DNA of 31,779 bases, taken from a virus. A program made the position numbers and the translations under genes. The notes under the pieces are model-generated. The model was not told the origin of the DNA and made no database searches. It worked only from the letters and a program-made list of their open reading frames with translations. Below are positions 8,474-11,785 of the stretch, piece after piece (position 1 is the stretch's first letter; each line of letters begins with the position of its first letter). The stretch covers positions 1-31,779 of IMG/VR virus record IMGVR_UViG_3300008954_000173. One strand, given 5' to 3'.

Positions 8474-8481
8474 GTTAGCAA
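8474..8481 (-). repeat. Possible attC-like end box after the 84-aa gene
   Basis: Plus-strand GTTAGCAA. The TAA stop of the 84-aa gene lies inside it, exactly as the stops of other genes in this zone lie inside their GTTA boxes. The adjacent plus-strand text TTACATT resembles the inner arm of the element at 9666-9690. Only one half is visible, so it may be chance. Confidence 0.25.
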
Positions 8482-8729
8482 TAATGCTCCCTCAGTTCTT
8501 TTACCAAGTATTTAAGAAGCACTTTGCCATATTCCTTTTTTGTTAGGTGTCTGCCGTCTTCGTGCATTAATTCATTTATTGGCATAGCTATTTCAGCTTC
8601 ATTTTCAATATAGTCAATCAATGCACTATTACTAACACTAAATAAAACACATAACTCATTGTAGAGTGCTTGTCCATCTTCTGTGCTTACTGTGTAATCT
8701 TCTGCTAACTTTCTAAGTTTATCTTTCAT
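8475..8729 (-). CDS. Hypothetical acidic small protein
   Basis: 84 aa, mainly helical and acidic, with MKDKLRKLAEDYTVSTEDGQALYNELCVLF at the N-terminus and a basic C-terminal end (KKEYGKVLLKYLVKELREHYC). No family recognised. Its TAA stop lies in a GTTAGC box resembling the end boxes of the hairpin-linked genes upstream. It is the last gene of the accessory zone before the packaging block. Confidence 0.68.
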   Translation of the reverse strand: MKDKLRKLAEDYTVSTEDGQALYNELCVLFSVSNSALIDYIENEAEIAMPINELMHEDGRHLTKKEYGKVLLKYLVKELREHYC

Positions 8730-8755
8730 AATCGTTACGTTTTTTATTCTTGTCC

Positions 8756-8766
8756 ATTGTGTGTAA
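8756..8766 (-). repeat. attC-like R'' box remnant after the 87-aa gene
   Basis: Minus-strand TTACACACAAT. Its complement matches 9 of 11 bases of GTTGTGTGTAG, the box just before the same gene (9074-9064). This is the flanking complementarity seen around other genes of the zone. No inner arm or second box follows, so the site would be truncated or degenerate. Confidence 0.45.
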
Positions 8767-8768
8767 TG

Positions 8769-9032
8769 CTAATTCTCAAGCATTTTATCAATCTCTTTGC
8801 AATTATCAGAAGCATAAGCAACGTGAGAATCAATATACGCCTTTAGAATCTTTCCGTTTTCATCAAACATTACTCCTGCATAAAACTCATCGTACCCACA
8901 TTTCGTAAATCTAACATCGCAATTATAAATATCCTCATATCTTACTACTGTGTTTTTGTCTATTGTTTTTATTTTAGAAGGCTTCATTCCCACCCACTCC
9001 ATAAACTTTTCAAATACTTCTTTGTCTGTCAT
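8769..9032 (-). CDS. Hypothetical cassette-borne small protein
   Basis: 87 aa: MTDKEVFEKFMEWVGMKPSK, then a beta-rich region with YNCDVRFTKCGYDEFYAGVMFDENGKILKAYID and a short C-terminal helix. No family recognised; the FDENGKI segment suggests a compact alpha/beta fold. The gene is bracketed by GTTGTGTGTAG (9074-9064) and TTACACACAAT (8766-8756), complementary at 9 of 11 bases, which marks it as one gene-cassette-like unit. Its base use resembles that of neighbouring 9328-9636 and is less extremely AT-rich than the replication genes. Confidence 0.7.
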   Translation of the reverse strand: MTDKEVFEKFMEWVGMKPSKIKTIDKNTVVRYEDIYNCDVRFTKCGYDEFYAGVMFDENGKILKAYIDSHVAYASDNCKEIDKMLEN

Positions 9033-9063
9033 TTTATTTATTTTTATTCGTTAATAATCCACA

Positions 9064-9122
9064 CTACACACAACAACGTATAAAGCACATTAAAACGTGC
9101 CTTATACAATGCGTTATGCACC
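9064..9122 (-). repeat. attC-like hairpin A
   Basis: Read on plus: CTACACACAAC (9064-9074), spacer AAC, arm GTATAAAGCAC (9078-9088), loop ATTAAAAC, arm GTGCCTTATAC (9097-9107), spacer AATGC, box GTTATGCACC (9113-9122). The arms pair at 10 of 11 positions. The two outer boxes share only AAC/GTT. The minus-strand GGTGCATAAC box is complementary to the GTTATGCACC box in front of the 41-aa gene. Architecture and loop match elements D and F. Confidence 0.7.
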
Positions 9123-9123
9123 A

Positions 9124-9249
9124 TTAGATTCTTCTCTCTAAAAAAGCAATATCTTTATCTATGAGCCTTATGTATCTTTCTAAATTAAAAACTCTTAATC
9201 TCAAATCTTTTATTTCTTCTTCTAATTTTTTTATCTTCTCTTCTTCCAT
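9124..9249 (-). CDS. 41-aa coiled-coil peptide, single-gene cassette
   Basis: ATG at 9249 gives MEEEKIKKLEEEIKDLRLRV, then FNLERYIRLIDKDIAFLERRI and TAA at 9126. The whole peptide is one amphipathic heptad-like helix, probably an oligomerising coiled coil. The gene is framed by GTTATGCACCGTTAG before it (9281-9267 on minus) and CTAATGGTGCATAAC after it (9127-9113), complementary at 14 of 15 bases. That framing and the clean frame support it as a real gene. Function unknown. Confidence 0.6.
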   Translation of the reverse strand: MEEEKIKKLEEEIKDLRLRVFNLERYIRLIDKDIAFLERRI

Positions 9250-9271
9250 TGTAATTCAGTATTTAACTAAC

Positions 9272-9334
9272 GGTGCATAACAACACCTAAAAATAATTTC
9301 GTTCCTCAACTCTTTTTATATTTATCATTATAGA
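9272..9334 (-). repeat. attC-like hairpin B (long-loop type)
   Basis: Read on plus: GGTGCATAAC (9272-9281), spacer AAC, then ACCTAAAAATAATTTCGTTC, CTCAACTCTTTTTATATTTA, and TCATTATAG. It shares ATTTCGTTCCTCAAC and the TTTTTA arm with element C. The arms are only weakly paired (AAAAA/TTTTT) and the last box is ATTATAG instead of GTTAT, so this copy looks diverged. The stop of the 102-aa gene lies at the TTA of CATTA, the same place as in C and D. Confidence 0.58.
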
Positions 9335-9636
9335 GCATTTAAAGAATCAATCTTGTCTTTATTTGCTACTATAAATTTACAGGCAGCTACAAAACTACTG
9401 TATGCAATACCTTGTTCTTTTATGTTATCAAAGTCTAAGCTTTCAGCGTATTCAATCCCTTTGTCTTGTAAAAAACGCTCTATAACAACAGGTATATAAT
9501 CATTATTTTTAAATAACTTTATTAATTCTTGGTACTCTGTGCTATTTATTTGGTCATTAAAGTTTAAATTGGTTCTAGCTTGTCCGTAACGCATACCGTC
9601 TGCAAATGCTATTCTTAGTAAGTCCTCTATTTTCAT
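9328..9636 (-). CDS. Hypothetical protein, accessory zone
   Basis: 102 aa, mostly helical and acidic: MKIEDLLRIAFADGMRYGQA, then a middle section with STEYQELIKLFKNNDYIPVVIERFL, and FVAACKFIVANKDKIDSLNAL at the end. No family recognised. The stop codon is inside element B. Codon use is slightly less AT-biased than in replication genes, in line with a separately acquired gene. Confidence 0.72.
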   Translation of the reverse strand: MKIEDLLRIAFADGMRYGQARTNLNFNDQINSTEYQELIKLFKNNDYIPVVIERFLQDKGIEYAESLDFDNIKEQGIAYSSFVAACKFIVANKDKIDSLNAL

Positions 9637-9665
9637 TTTATGTTTCTGTTTATTCAGTTAAAAAT

Positions 9666-9690
9666 TACGCTTGTTACATTAAAGTTATTC
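9666..9690 (-). repeat. attC-like half element H after the 53-aa gene
   Basis: Read on plus: ACGCTTGTTACATTAAAGTTATTC. It aligns with the second half of element C (ACGCTTTTTACACTAAGCGTTATT) with a few substitutions and small gaps, and the stop of the 53-aa gene lies in the GTTA box as in C and D. The other half is missing; the next gene starts at 9636. Confidence 0.4.
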
Positions 9691-9846
9691 ATTAATAACT
9701 TTTAATACTAAATTTTCAAACTCACTTATTGCCTCACTCAAATCATTTAGTGGTTTTTCTAAATCCTCACTTGTTTCAGGTCTCATAAAACTCATTGCAG
9801 TCAGATGTCCTAAAACATCATTTAATTTTTGTATTGTATCTTTCAT
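9685..9846 (-). CDS. 53-aa small protein sharing its C-terminus with the 68-aa gene
   Basis: ATG at 9846 gives MKDTIQKLNDVLGHLTAMSF, then MRPETSEDLEKPLNDLSEAI and SEFENLVLKVINE. It is helical and acidic. The last ten residues, ENLVLKVINE, match ENLVLKVIDE of the gene ending at 10002, and about 35 nt of DNA across the stop differ at only three positions. This suggests a duplicated or recombined end. The frame is clean and the 5' leader is A-rich. Function unknown. Confidence 0.62.
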   Translation of the reverse strand: MKDTIQKLNDVLGHLTAMSFMRPETSEDLEKPLNDLSEAISEFENLVLKVINE

Positions 9847-9875
9847 TTGTTTTGTTTTTATTTAGTTTAACATTT

Positions 9876-9896
9876 TTTATACAAACCGTTATGTAC
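9876..9896 (-). repeat. attC-like half element E
   Basis: Read on plus: arm TTTATAC (9876-9882), 5-nt spacer AAACC, box GTTATGTAC (9888-9896). Arm, spacer length and box match the second half of element A or C. The box is complementary to GATACATAAC at 9953-9962 over 8 bases, which would delimit a cassette of about 65 nt with no open frame. The opposite half is not visible. Confidence 0.42.
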
Positions 9897-9952
9897 AAGT
9901 GTGTCGCAGAACACGTAACTGCTAATCGGACTTTTAATTTATTGACACACCA
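9897..9952. other. ORF-less segment between two complementary boxes (mini-cassette?)
   Basis: The segment lies between boxes GTTATGTAC and GATACATAAC. It carries an inner 7-bp inverted repeat, GTGTGTC (9899-9905) and GACACAC (9944-9950), so the whole could fold as a two-step hairpin. No convincing coding frame is present on either strand. It could be a non-coding cassette, a deletion remnant, or a structured RNA. Confidence 0.4.
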
Positions 9953-10007
9953 GATACATAACAATAAATATAAAACATTAAAACGCTGTTTACACTCAGC
10001 GTTACTC
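9953..10007 (-). repeat. attC-like hairpin D
   Basis: Read on plus: GATACATAAC (9953-9962), spacer AAT, arm AAATATAAAAC, loop ATTAAAAC, arm region GCTGTTTACAC, spacer TCAGC, box GTTACTC. The first arm and loop match element F and the second arm and box match element C, so D looks like a hybrid. Pairing of the arms is imperfect. The TAA stop of the 68-aa gene (10004-10002) lies within GTTA. Confidence 0.6.
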
Positions 10008-10208
10008 ATCAATAACTTTTAACACTAAATTTTCAATATGCGCTATTTCATCAATTTTAAATAAATTGTAAATATCTACTTCAGAATCTAATAAACTTAT
10101 AGACTCTATTTCCAAAACTGCTGGAGAATTTGTTTGTAACTCTTCTTTGTAATAAGTACCTCTTACCACCAACTCTATTAACTTGTATTCTATTTGTATA
10201 CTTTCCAT
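10002..10208 (-). CDS. 68-aa small protein, accessory zone
   Basis: Chosen start ATG 10208 (MESIQIEYKLIELVVRGTYY); an in-frame ATG at 10256 adds a hydrophobic, phenylalanine/isoleucine-rich leader encoded by near-pure AT and is less likely. The body is acidic with predicted strands, YKEELQTNSPAVLEIESISL, and ends IAHIENLVLKVIDE, a tail shared with the 53-aa gene. No family recognised. Its stop overlaps element D. Confidence 0.62.
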   Translation of the reverse strand: MESIQIEYKLIELVVRGTYYKEELQTNSPAVLEIESISLLDSEVDIYNLFKIDEIAHIENLVLKVIDE

Positions 10209-10240
10209 GTTTGTTTTATTTTCTTCAAATATAAAAATAA

Positions 10241-10477
10241 TTATAATACTACACAATTTTTTTTATTATTTTTATTATATAATTGTGTATTTTCTTTTTT
10301 ACTTAGGTATTTATTTATAAAAACTCTTTCTTTATCTGTTATTATATCCGAAAGCATCCATATATTGTTAAGTTTATATATTTTTACGTCTTTATCTTTA
10401 TTGTTTCTTAATAAATAGTATACATCTTTTTCTGTTACGCTGCTTATTATATATAATTTTTCTTCTTTTATTATCAT
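10241..10477 (-). CDS. Small protein coupled to the replication ATPase
   Basis: 78 aa, MIIKEEKLYIISSVTEKDVYYLLRNNKDKDVKIYKLNNIWMLSDIITDKE..., lysine-rich C-terminus. The start overlaps the stop of the ATPase gene as ATGA (10477-10474), so the two are translationally coupled and probably act together. The alternation of short strands and helices could be a winged-helix-like or adaptor domain, but I do not recognise the family. Confidence 0.66.
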   Translation of the reverse strand: MIIKEEKLYIISSVTEKDVYYLLRNNKDKDVKIYKLNNIWMLSDIITDKERVFINKYLSKKENTQLYNKNNKKNCVVL

Positions 10478-11331
10478 ATAAATTTGTTATTATTTTCTAT
10501 TTGGTTGTAATCGTCTATAATTTGGGGTAGCCATGTGCTAGAATCTACTGTAAAACTAAAATCGTCAAAAGATTTATTCCTAGAATAATCGCATGTTACT
10601 TTTGTAAAATCTCCGTCCGCTTCTGTAAATACAACTGTTTCAGCTTTTTTTAATATGCTACTACCTGCGTGCCCTGTTGGTTTTTTTGTTCCGAATGAAC
10701 TGTGTAAAATACCTGTAATATGTATCTTTTTTTCGTCTGTCCATTTTAAAAGTTTATTAGATAACATTGTAGACTCTTCTAAGTTGTTAAAGTCTTTTAT
10801 TAAATCCGCATAGCCGTCTATTGTTACAAGTCCTATATTGTCTTTGTATTCACTTTCGTATAATGTATATTCAATTAACTCTAAACGCTCTTTAGGTTCT
10901 AATTTACGTAAGCTAAACCCCTCGTAATAGTCATATGTGCCGCCTATCATTTCAGTAACTCGCCTTAAAACTCTTTGTGTATGGAATTTACTTTGTTCTG
11001 TGTCAAACTCTAACACAAATTTATCTTTTGTATTGTGTCCTTTTATATCTGGAAAATAATTATTTGATAGCCCACCAATATAACCCGCTACAATAGCAGA
11101 TTTTAAAAATGTTTTACGTGATTTAGACGCCCCAACTATGCAAGAAAAATCGCCATAAGATCCAAAAGGTATATAATAATTATTGCCTTTATATAAACTT
11201 GTTCCAATACTTACGGCTACAGGTTGCTGTTTTATATCTTCTGATATATCTATTCTTGTTTCTTGTAGTAATTTTTCGTAATTGTTTTCATTTTTATTTT
11301 GTTCTTCTAAGTTTACTTTTAGTTTTTTCAT
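10474..11331 (-). CDS. RecA/DnaB-type replicative ATPase (AAA_25 / RepA-like helicase)
   Basis: 285 aa. Walker A GASKSRKT (residues 67-74), a beta strand FVLEFDTEQ (105-113) with the acidic residue usual in RecA-fold ATPases, Walker B-like IGLVTIDGYADL (166-177), and a later GILHSSFGTKKPTGHAGSSILKKAETVV that fits the arginine/sensor loop of RepA/AAA_25 proteins. These proteins act as hexameric DNA helicases or loaders in phage and plasmid replication. There is no primase or DnaB N-terminal domain, so it probably works with host primase. The upstream initiator with iterons supports a helicase role. Downstream ATGA coupling to a 78-aa protein. Confidence 0.84.
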   Translation of the reverse strand: MKKLKVNLEEQNKNENNYEKLLQETRIDISEDIKQQPVAVSIGTSLYKGNNYYIPFGSYGDFSCIVGASKSRKTFLKSAIVAGYIGGLSNNYFPDIKGHNTKDKFVLEFDTEQSKFHTQRVLRRVTEMIGGTYDYYEGFSLRKLEPKERLELIEYTLYESEYKDNIGLVTIDGYADLIKDFNNLEESTMLSNKLLKWTDEKKIHITGILHSSFGTKKPTGHAGSSILKKAETVVFTEADGDFTKVTCDYSRNKSFDDFSFTVDSSTWLPQIIDDYNQIENNNKFI

Positions 11332-11348
11332 TTATTATTAGTTTGTTA

Positions 11349-11406
11349 AATATTCACAACGGTAAATATAAATCATTAAAACGATTTATATTTTCATGTT
11401 ATAACC
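11349..11406 (-). repeat. attC-like hairpin F
   Basis: Read on plus: AATATTCACAAC (11349-11360), spacer GGT, arm AAATATAAATC (11364-11374), loop ATTAAAAC, arm GATTTATATTT (11383-11393), spacer TCAT, box GTTATAACC (11398-11406). The arms form a perfect 11-bp stem. Minus-strand GGTTATAAC is the exact complement of GTTATAACC in element C, on the other side of the 98-aa gene. A terminator role alone would not explain this. Confidence 0.72.
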
Positions 11407-11408
11407 AA

Positions 11409-11705
11409 TTAAATAAGCTCTTGTCCTGCTAGTATATTAGCAGCTTCTATTTTAGCTAGTTTTTTGGTTTCTTCGTAATCTATGTTTTCAAGCTCGTAAG
11501 CTCTTTTAAGTAACTCGCTTTCTTTTTCAAGAATCGCTTTTATTATGTATTTGTCAAACTGTAAATTGTCGTAAGCTCCTGCTATTGTTACTTTTCTTAA
11601 ATTCTTTTCAGCTATGTAAACACGCTCTTTGTTTACCATATAGCCAGTAGAACTTTCTCTATTACTCTCTATTCTTCTTAGTTTTTCTATACTTTCTAGT
11701 TTCAT
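11409..11705 (-). CDS. Hypothetical helical protein, clean single-gene cassette
   Basis: 98 aa, MKLESIEKLRRIESNRESST, later NLRKVTIAGAYDNLQFDKYIIK and a long helix ESELLKRAYELENIDYEETKKLAKIEAANIL. No family recognised; the frame resembles small helical phage proteins that modulate host factors, but that is only appearance. The gene is delimited by minus-strand GTTATAACC (11731-11723) before it and GGTTATAAC (11406-11398) after it, a 9/9 complementary pair, with its TAA 2 nt before the second box. Its codon use is less AT-extreme than that of the flanking replication genes. Confidence 0.73.
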   Translation of the reverse strand: MKLESIEKLRRIESNRESSTGYMVNKERVYIAEKNLRKVTIAGAYDNLQFDKYIIKAILEKESELLKRAYELENIDYEETKKLAKIEAANILAGQELI

Positions 11706-11722
11706 ATTCCGCTTATTTAAAA

Positions 11723-11785
11723 GGTTATAACAATGTGTAAATAATCATTTCGTTCCTCAACGCTTTTTACACTAAGCGTTATTTG
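11723..11785 (-). repeat. attC-like hairpin C (long-loop type)
   Basis: Read on plus: GGTTATAAC (11723-11731), spacer AAT, arm GTGTAAA (11735-11741), loop region containing CATTTCGTTCCTCAACGC, arm TTTACAC (11766-11772), spacer TAAGC, box GTTATTTG (11778-11785). The 7-bp arms pair perfectly and the GTTAT/ATAAC cores pair outside the spacers. The stop of the 86-aa gene (11781-11779) lies in GTTA. Confidence 0.7.

Follow-up and report, generated by a model that had tools for sequence, protein, structure and literature searches.

The window analysed here, a whole stretch of DNA of 31,779 nt from a virus (record IMGVR_UViG_3300008954_000173; GC 28%), most likely harbors an array of integron-type mobile gene cassettes, a reading to which we assign a probability of about 0.88 on the strength of sequence comparisons. 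In the proposed unit, an R'' box is followed by a 5-nt spacer, a hairpin arm, a loop, the second arm, a spacer of 3 or 4 nt, and an R' box, behind which comes a small gene or a short stretch that lacks an open reading frame (ORF); the unit would close with a box that complements the R' box of that unit. The enzyme would be a tyrosine recombinase from the host or another element, and through it a circular cassette would enter a site at AA|C in the R'' box. Such an insertion would split a box pair, and matching boxes would therefore end up flanking the gene. Three parts of this scheme are presumed: that a single folded strand serves as substrate, that the intermediate is a circle, and which enzyme acts.

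The minus strand carries the main genes of the window, and sites and genes are read here in gene orientation, that is, on the minus strand. The large terminase is 52% identical to those of Flavobacterium psychrophilum phages, and the host is therefore likely to belong to the Bacteroidota.

Sites and paired boxes in the window

The sites are recognized by covariation. The covariance model R1 was built from an alignment of 18 sites, drawn from the window and from five other contigs; its training set took in four sites of the window (C, F, D, and A) and left out the fifth (B). The sequence-only reading had named five complete hairpins, and R1 matches all of them at 41-66 bits, B included. In the alignment, 86.7% of the cells of a 10-bp helix are paired and 45 cells are changed on both sides versus 16.9 in shuffles; none of 500 shuffles reaches either value, and the signal collapses when the position of the helix is slid. 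In DNA this rich in AT, a search for hairpins proves little by itself: a plain scan lets A and F stand out, returns C at background level, and finds several matches in shuffles too. A loose DNA pattern gives counts close to chance in the window, and an Rfam scan of the window yields no attC-like match, only a single chance match.

The boxes across a gene provide a further line of evidence. In dinucleotide shuffles, in which a complementary AAC-box partner of a GTT was sought 60-700 nt downstream, partners are found per GTT at rates of 1.3% (9/9), 0.34% (10/10), and 0.04% (a 15-mer with one mismatch). A single box match is thus unremarkable; the set over several arrays exceeds chance, in shuffles and permutations alike, a random control of the kind that the sequence-only reading had asked for. 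In a pooled test that excludes the GTT/AAC cores, scores seven non-core positions, and permutes the partners 20,000 times, 17 adjacent pairs from phage arrays (the window and its relatives) average 4.76/7 matches versus 2.99 when permuted (p<5e-5), and 22 pairs from the chromosomal arrays described below average 4.05/7 versus 2.52 (p<5e-5). A later, pattern-found viral set of 20 pairs gives 4.0 versus 2.85 (p=2.5e-4); the viral pairs include some related contigs and are not all independent. Between the two boxes of one hairpin, the permutation test finds no excess of complementarity.

All five sites of the window lie on one strand, between single small genes, and the pairings quoted in the sequence-only reading are borne out. 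Site C (11724..11785; 66.2 bits with R1) comprises an R'' box ending in AAATAAC, 7-bp arms GTGTAAA/TTTACAC, a loop of the GTTGAGGAACGAAAT type, and the R' box GTTATAACC at 11723-11731. Together with a 98-aa gene (11409-11705) it would form cassette 1 (11399..11778), the boundaries of which are placed from the AA|C crossover discussed in the next section; it would end in GGTTATAA|C of site F, and its boxes GTTATAACC/GGTTATAAC (C to F) are complementary at 9/9 positions. Site F (11353..11405; 45.9 bits) has GGTTATAAC as R'', arms ATATAAATC/GATTTATAT, loop GTTTTAAT, and R' box GTTGTGAAT.

Site D (9955..10008; 46.3 bits) has R'' GAGTAAC, in which the stop codon of the 10002-10208 gene is overlapped, and R' GTTATGTATC. 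With about 65 nt, site D would constitute an ORF-less cassette (9889..10001) ending in TACATAA|C of the half site at 9888-9895; the boxes GTTATGTA/TACATAAC (D to 9888) match at 8/8, which is modestly rare alone (4% per GTT). Site B (9274..9334; 41.3 bits) combines a degenerate R'' box, CTATAAT, with loop GTTGAGGAACGAAAT and R' box GTTATGCACC (9272-9281). Cassette 2 (9114..9328) would consist of site B and a 41-aa gene (9124-9249) and end in GGTGCATAA|C of site A; its boxes GTTATGCACC/GGTGCATAAC (B to A) match at 10/10, extending to a 15-mer with one mismatch. Site A (9067..9120; 57.1 bits) has R'' GGTGCATAAC, arms GTATAAGGCAC/GTGCTTTATAC, loop GTTTTAAT, and R' GTTGTGTGTAG. Cassette 3 (8757..9113), site A with an 87-aa gene (8769-9032), would end in TTACACACAA at the half box 8756-8766, where inspection of the sequence gives a 9/11 match to site A; this is probably also the end of the array. 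Two loop types recur, GTTTTAAT in A, D, and F and GTTGAGGAACGAAAT in B and C. The R' boxes GTTATAA, GTTGTGA, GTTATGT, GTTATGC, and GTTGTGT do not fit GTTRRRY, so that the boxes are non-canonical as first described; some relatives have R' boxes that fit, e.g., GTTAGGC and GTTAGGT.

The interval between F and D carries a 285-aa ATPase-like gene (10474..11331) with only a weak Pfam match, to AAA_25. Because phages that are free of such sites hold homologues of this gene with 56-58% identity, the interval is regarded as phage core and not as a cassette. A search of the array genes against PHROGs and Pfam assigns no confident function, and a search for close relatives of the 102-aa gene gave none. 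The array genes at 9685-9846 and 10002-10208 encode the same C-terminus, NLVLKVI[ND]E, and have in common a repeat of 53 nt (79% identity); they possibly represent a duplicated cassette.

Cassette presence and absence and the crossover point in other phages

The closest comparison is a phage contig (L008) that shares with the window its large terminase subunit (TerL, 80% identity), small terminase subunit (TerS, 69%), and the next gene (47%). At the syntenic place, upstream of the same conserved genes, it has five R1 matches, and its array genes are without relatives in the window. The two phages thus carry different genes at corresponding positions, set between hairpins of one family, in keeping with a cassette array, and the boxes of L008 also pair around genes, e.g., GTTGTAAGTA/TACTTACAAC. 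In 15 more distant relatives no site is found.

Whole-cassette differences are seen in other virus contigs of the same site family, not in the window itself. L353 and L271, which come from different metagenome records, are 100% identical for 3,000 nt upstream and for 1,000 nt downstream of a site that is empty in L353 and filled in L271, where a 428-nt insert lies exactly between the AA and the C of the R'' box. The insert consists, in order, of its own site (11-bp arms and a long loop), GTTAGCACCA, and the remainder of a gene for 115 aa that starts inside the hairpin loop, and it ends in TGGTGCTAA; its boxes GTTAGCACCA/TGGTGCTAAC are 10/10 complementary. A second locus exists in several states: L343 and L244 are empty, L348 has 282 nt more, and L294 has 1,180 nt more, all states being joined at TAA|C. 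The 282-nt cassette of L348 has its own site and a box pair, GTTATAAGCC/GGCTTATAAC (also written GTTATAAGCC/GGCTTATAA), that matches at 10/10. All three inserts in the two loci lie exactly at AA|C.

Among 170 usable viral sites, 27 pairs keep the hairpin with the following gene only and none keeps it with the preceding gene only. Because the inserts lie at AA|C and the breakpoints divide 27:0, the phage cassette is read from these alignments as a site followed by a gene, with exchange predicted in R'' at AA|C, which the opposite strand reads as G|TT. Phage cassettes would accordingly be inverted relative to ordinary gene-attC cassettes. The sequence-only reading had expected related phages to differ at the G|TT point, and near-identical phages do differ by whole cassettes; it had placed the crossover in the R' box, and in this it was mistaken, the junctions lying instead in R'', beside the 5-nt spacer.

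Sites of this kind occur in other viruses as well. A strict pattern for one site form matches at least 120 viral stretches, and the Polaribacter phage P12002L (L192) has five R1 sites, all sense to its genes, with boxes such as GTTAGGCAC/GTGCCTAAC. The published attC directions of P12002L are divergent, and R1 orients all five sites the same way; one of the published calls may be reversed in direction. DNA methyltransferase genes recur in phage cassettes, at 29248-32126 and 37305-38816 of P12002L, at L091:8003-8893, and in L355.

Chromosomal arrays and a candidate recombinase

R1 also matches 25 of 395 Bacteroidia genomes, in several of them in clusters. Relative to the genes, 48 chromosomal sites are antisense, 1 is sense, and 7 are mixed (loci L135-L146 and L177-L191), versus 80:6 in favor of the sense orientation in viral loci L243-L322 and 29:1 in a first viral set. 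An artefact of palindromy was considered as the origin of this split and rejected, as the spacers and the loop agree on direction. Should the chromosomes also use this AA|C box, their cassettes would have the usual gene-then-site order and those of phages would be inverted.

In seven genomes (G102, G253, G430, G396, G138, G007, and G072) arrays lie just downstream of a gene for a tyrosine recombinase, which mostly has 360-405 residues and is interrupted in G253. Two further genomes, G352 and G081, carry the same recombinase family, and behind it stand arrays of repeats 130-142 nt long, whose boxes include GTTATGGACT/AGTCCATAAC and GTTAGTGGCA/TGCCACTAAC. Loci with an array downstream of the recombinase include L139, L146, L177, L181, L182, L185, L126, L234, and L239, among others. 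The family is present in 205 of the 395 genomes. Of its minus-strand copies, 19 of 45 lie less than 1 kb from a contig end on the downstream side, as would be expected if repeats came next.

The Bacteroidota recombinase has a Phage_int_SAM_4 domain and a catalytic domain and is extended at its N-terminus by about 90 residues. Its members form one group (87/93) in a 30-sequence tree, where the group adjoins the integron integrase IntI and stands apart from XerC/D. The additional domain near patch III that is specific to IntI is absent in all 17 aligned Bacteroidota recombinases, and the five tested against the integron-integrase model TIGR02249 score 189-224 bits versus a cut-off of 265. From its linkage to arrays and the shared site type, we consider it fairly likely that this family, the best candidate for the enzyme, acts on the phage sites, and its role in the movement of phage cassettes is proposed on the same two grounds.

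The sequence-only reading proposed that an integron-type enzyme not encoded by the phage had loaded the small genes in the form of cassettes, a proposal supported by the relatives, the insert pairs, and the controls. TIGR02249 finds no match at E 0.01 in the virus record of the window, which may be incomplete, or in six further virus records, the largest of 202 kb, and it matches recombinases in 14 of 14 control genomes. The Bacteroidota recombinase family (A3) is likewise absent from 13 of 14 array-bearing virus records; the window record has none. A divergent 264-aa member without the N-terminal stretch occurs at L307:6918-7712, in a 48.5-kb virus record (G454) with sites.

Two chromosomal arrangements are of separate interest. 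At L142:13621-14181, a lone cassette reads TTGCGGAAC-hairpin-GTTGTAGCA-gene-TGCTACAAC-hairpin-GTTCCGCAA and sits within one otherwise palindromic site, that is, a site split by insertion. In the array adjoining the recombinase at L185:10200-14100 (G007:C149), the N-termini of the genes are closely similar (MYEQVEKPKENK..), as would fit a single gene family that was copied one cassette at a time.

Competing explanations, known integrons, and meaning

Several observations weigh against reading these elements as cassettes exchanged at AA|C by the Bacteroidota enzyme. In the window, the two strongest box pairs supply most of its own signal, and F and D show no box relation. AAC/GTT cores had been claimed for every complete copy; they are present in A, C, D, and F, and B has a degenerate 5' box (AAT). 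Of four proposed half copies, those at 8756 and 9888 have partner boxes, and those at 8474 and 9666 are degenerate and have none. Single-strand folding agrees with the description for A (z -2.2) and F (z -2.4) only: as lone strands, C and D favor a different hairpin, and the folding of B does not surpass that of shuffles. Elsewhere, no site of its own can be recognized in the insert of 1,180 nt in L294, and 10 site pairs have the gene side in common and differ in the hairpin, so some events depart from the simple AA|C rule. Some of the compared viral contigs are closely related, and pair counts do not equal independent events. Only some recombinase loci show arrays visible to R1, several others showing none, and many of the 395 genomes are fragmented.

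Chance pairing in DNA of 28% GC draws on the 1.3% frequency of 9/9 partners at random GTT sites and on the matches of simple hairpin scans in shuffles; it is refuted by the permutation results from all three data sets, by covariation, and by the empty and filled pairs, and it merits next to no credence. Hardly more credible is the view that the hairpins are terminators or dispersed repeats, with the mosaic arising by homologous or illegitimate recombination between phages. Most hairpins do lie close behind the end of a gene, phage genomes are mosaic, and the loop motifs are common to repeats. However, no T-run follows the stems, and complementarity of boxes across a gene is not expected; for the L271/L353 pair this view is refuted by the 428-nt insert, which has a different site of its own and complementary ends between identical flanks.

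The remaining alternatives concern the enzyme and the point of exchange. A crossover at G|TT of R', with cassettes in gene-then-site order, would account for the ten site pairs that have the gene side but not the hairpin in common; one example is a methyltransferase cassette of P12002L and L355, 98% identical over about 850 nt behind differing hairpins. With 27 pairs breaking at AA|C, none joining a hairpin to its preceding gene, and three inserts placed exactly at AA|C, this variant of the system is improbable. Somewhat less remote, though still unlikely, is that the array is an ordinary cluster of attC sites lacking an integron integrase (CALIN), which a standard IntI from a host or plasmid would move, with nothing specific to the Bacteroidota. 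In its favor, IntI1 recombined an attC of P12002L, being active on one of two sites tested (Qi et al. 2023, PMC9892861), and the five sites of this phage agree with those of the window in model and orientation. However, IntI exceeds the curated cut-off in 1 of the 395 Bacteroidia genomes (G190), and this copy was rejected as a source since no array is nearby; complete integrons are reported within the Bacteroidetes proper only from Salinibacter (IntegronFinder 2.0, PMC9024848); and the R' boxes of the window depart from the canonical consensus. A search of 46 genomes from the order of the first bacterial match gave no IntI, a result that is uninformative, as the model gave no signal at all. 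The near absence of IntI, together with the other recombinase family adjoining chromosomal arrays, agrees with the earlier suggestion of a divergent or new system.

Orphan attC clusters in phages are already known, and IntI probably uses some members of the present family. Integrons or parts of them were described in 21 phages, 17 of which have attC clusters without an integrase, including P12002L (Qi et al. 2023, PMC9892861). The window resembles these in its single-gene cassettes with hairpin sites and in a phage that lacks an integrase, and the sites of P12002L belong to the same family; it differs in the inverted site polarity suggested by the breakpoints, in cassette presence and absence between near-identical phages, and in a linked recombinase other than IntI. 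With attC sites recombined by IntI, the elements share AAC/GTT cores, two boxes around a stem-loop, exchange at AA|C (G|TT), split box pairs, and one gene per cassette. Unlike attC, boxes of this family rarely fit GTTRRRY, and the phage site would precede its gene. The arms of attC have extrahelical bases, and the bulge-free pairing of the A and F arms in the window may be a further difference. The Bacteroidota recombinase groups beside IntI and not with XerC/D, yet it falls below the TIGR02249 cut-off, lacks the IntI-specific domain, and has a longer N-terminus. An 'integron-like' group of simple tyrosine recombinases in which the IntI insertion is not fully conserved was described in 2021 (PMC8138268); no link to Bacteroidota cassette arrays was found there, the comparison being made by description. 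Within the literature searched, to which preprints and most subscription papers are external, no account of the chromosomal Bacteroidota system or of inverted polarity was found, and the inverted polarity, the non-IntI candidate, and the empty and filled pairs appear to be new.

We lean toward a broader proposal, held with less assurance than the action of the recombinase on phage sites: that the Bacteroidota have their own widespread integron lineage, with a recombinase that lacks the IntI-specific domain and is missed by integron-finding tools, and that their phages hold a parallel pool of cassettes, with genes facing the opposite way relative to the site, exchanged in nature via the host enzyme. 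The array in the window is a new member of a little-studied variant, and the wider pattern raises its interest. Integrons have so far been described as near-absent in the Bacteroidetes and as tied to IntI. If the proposal is true, about half of the sampled Bacteroidia carry a cassette enzyme without a domain held necessary for IntI1, which would change the view of integron origin, and phages would gain a precise means of swapping single small genes, among which DNA methyltransferase genes turn up repeatedly. The empty and filled phage pairs render the movement of cassettes directly testable. Together, these observations point to a little-recognized gene-capture system common to Bacteroidota bacteria and their phages.

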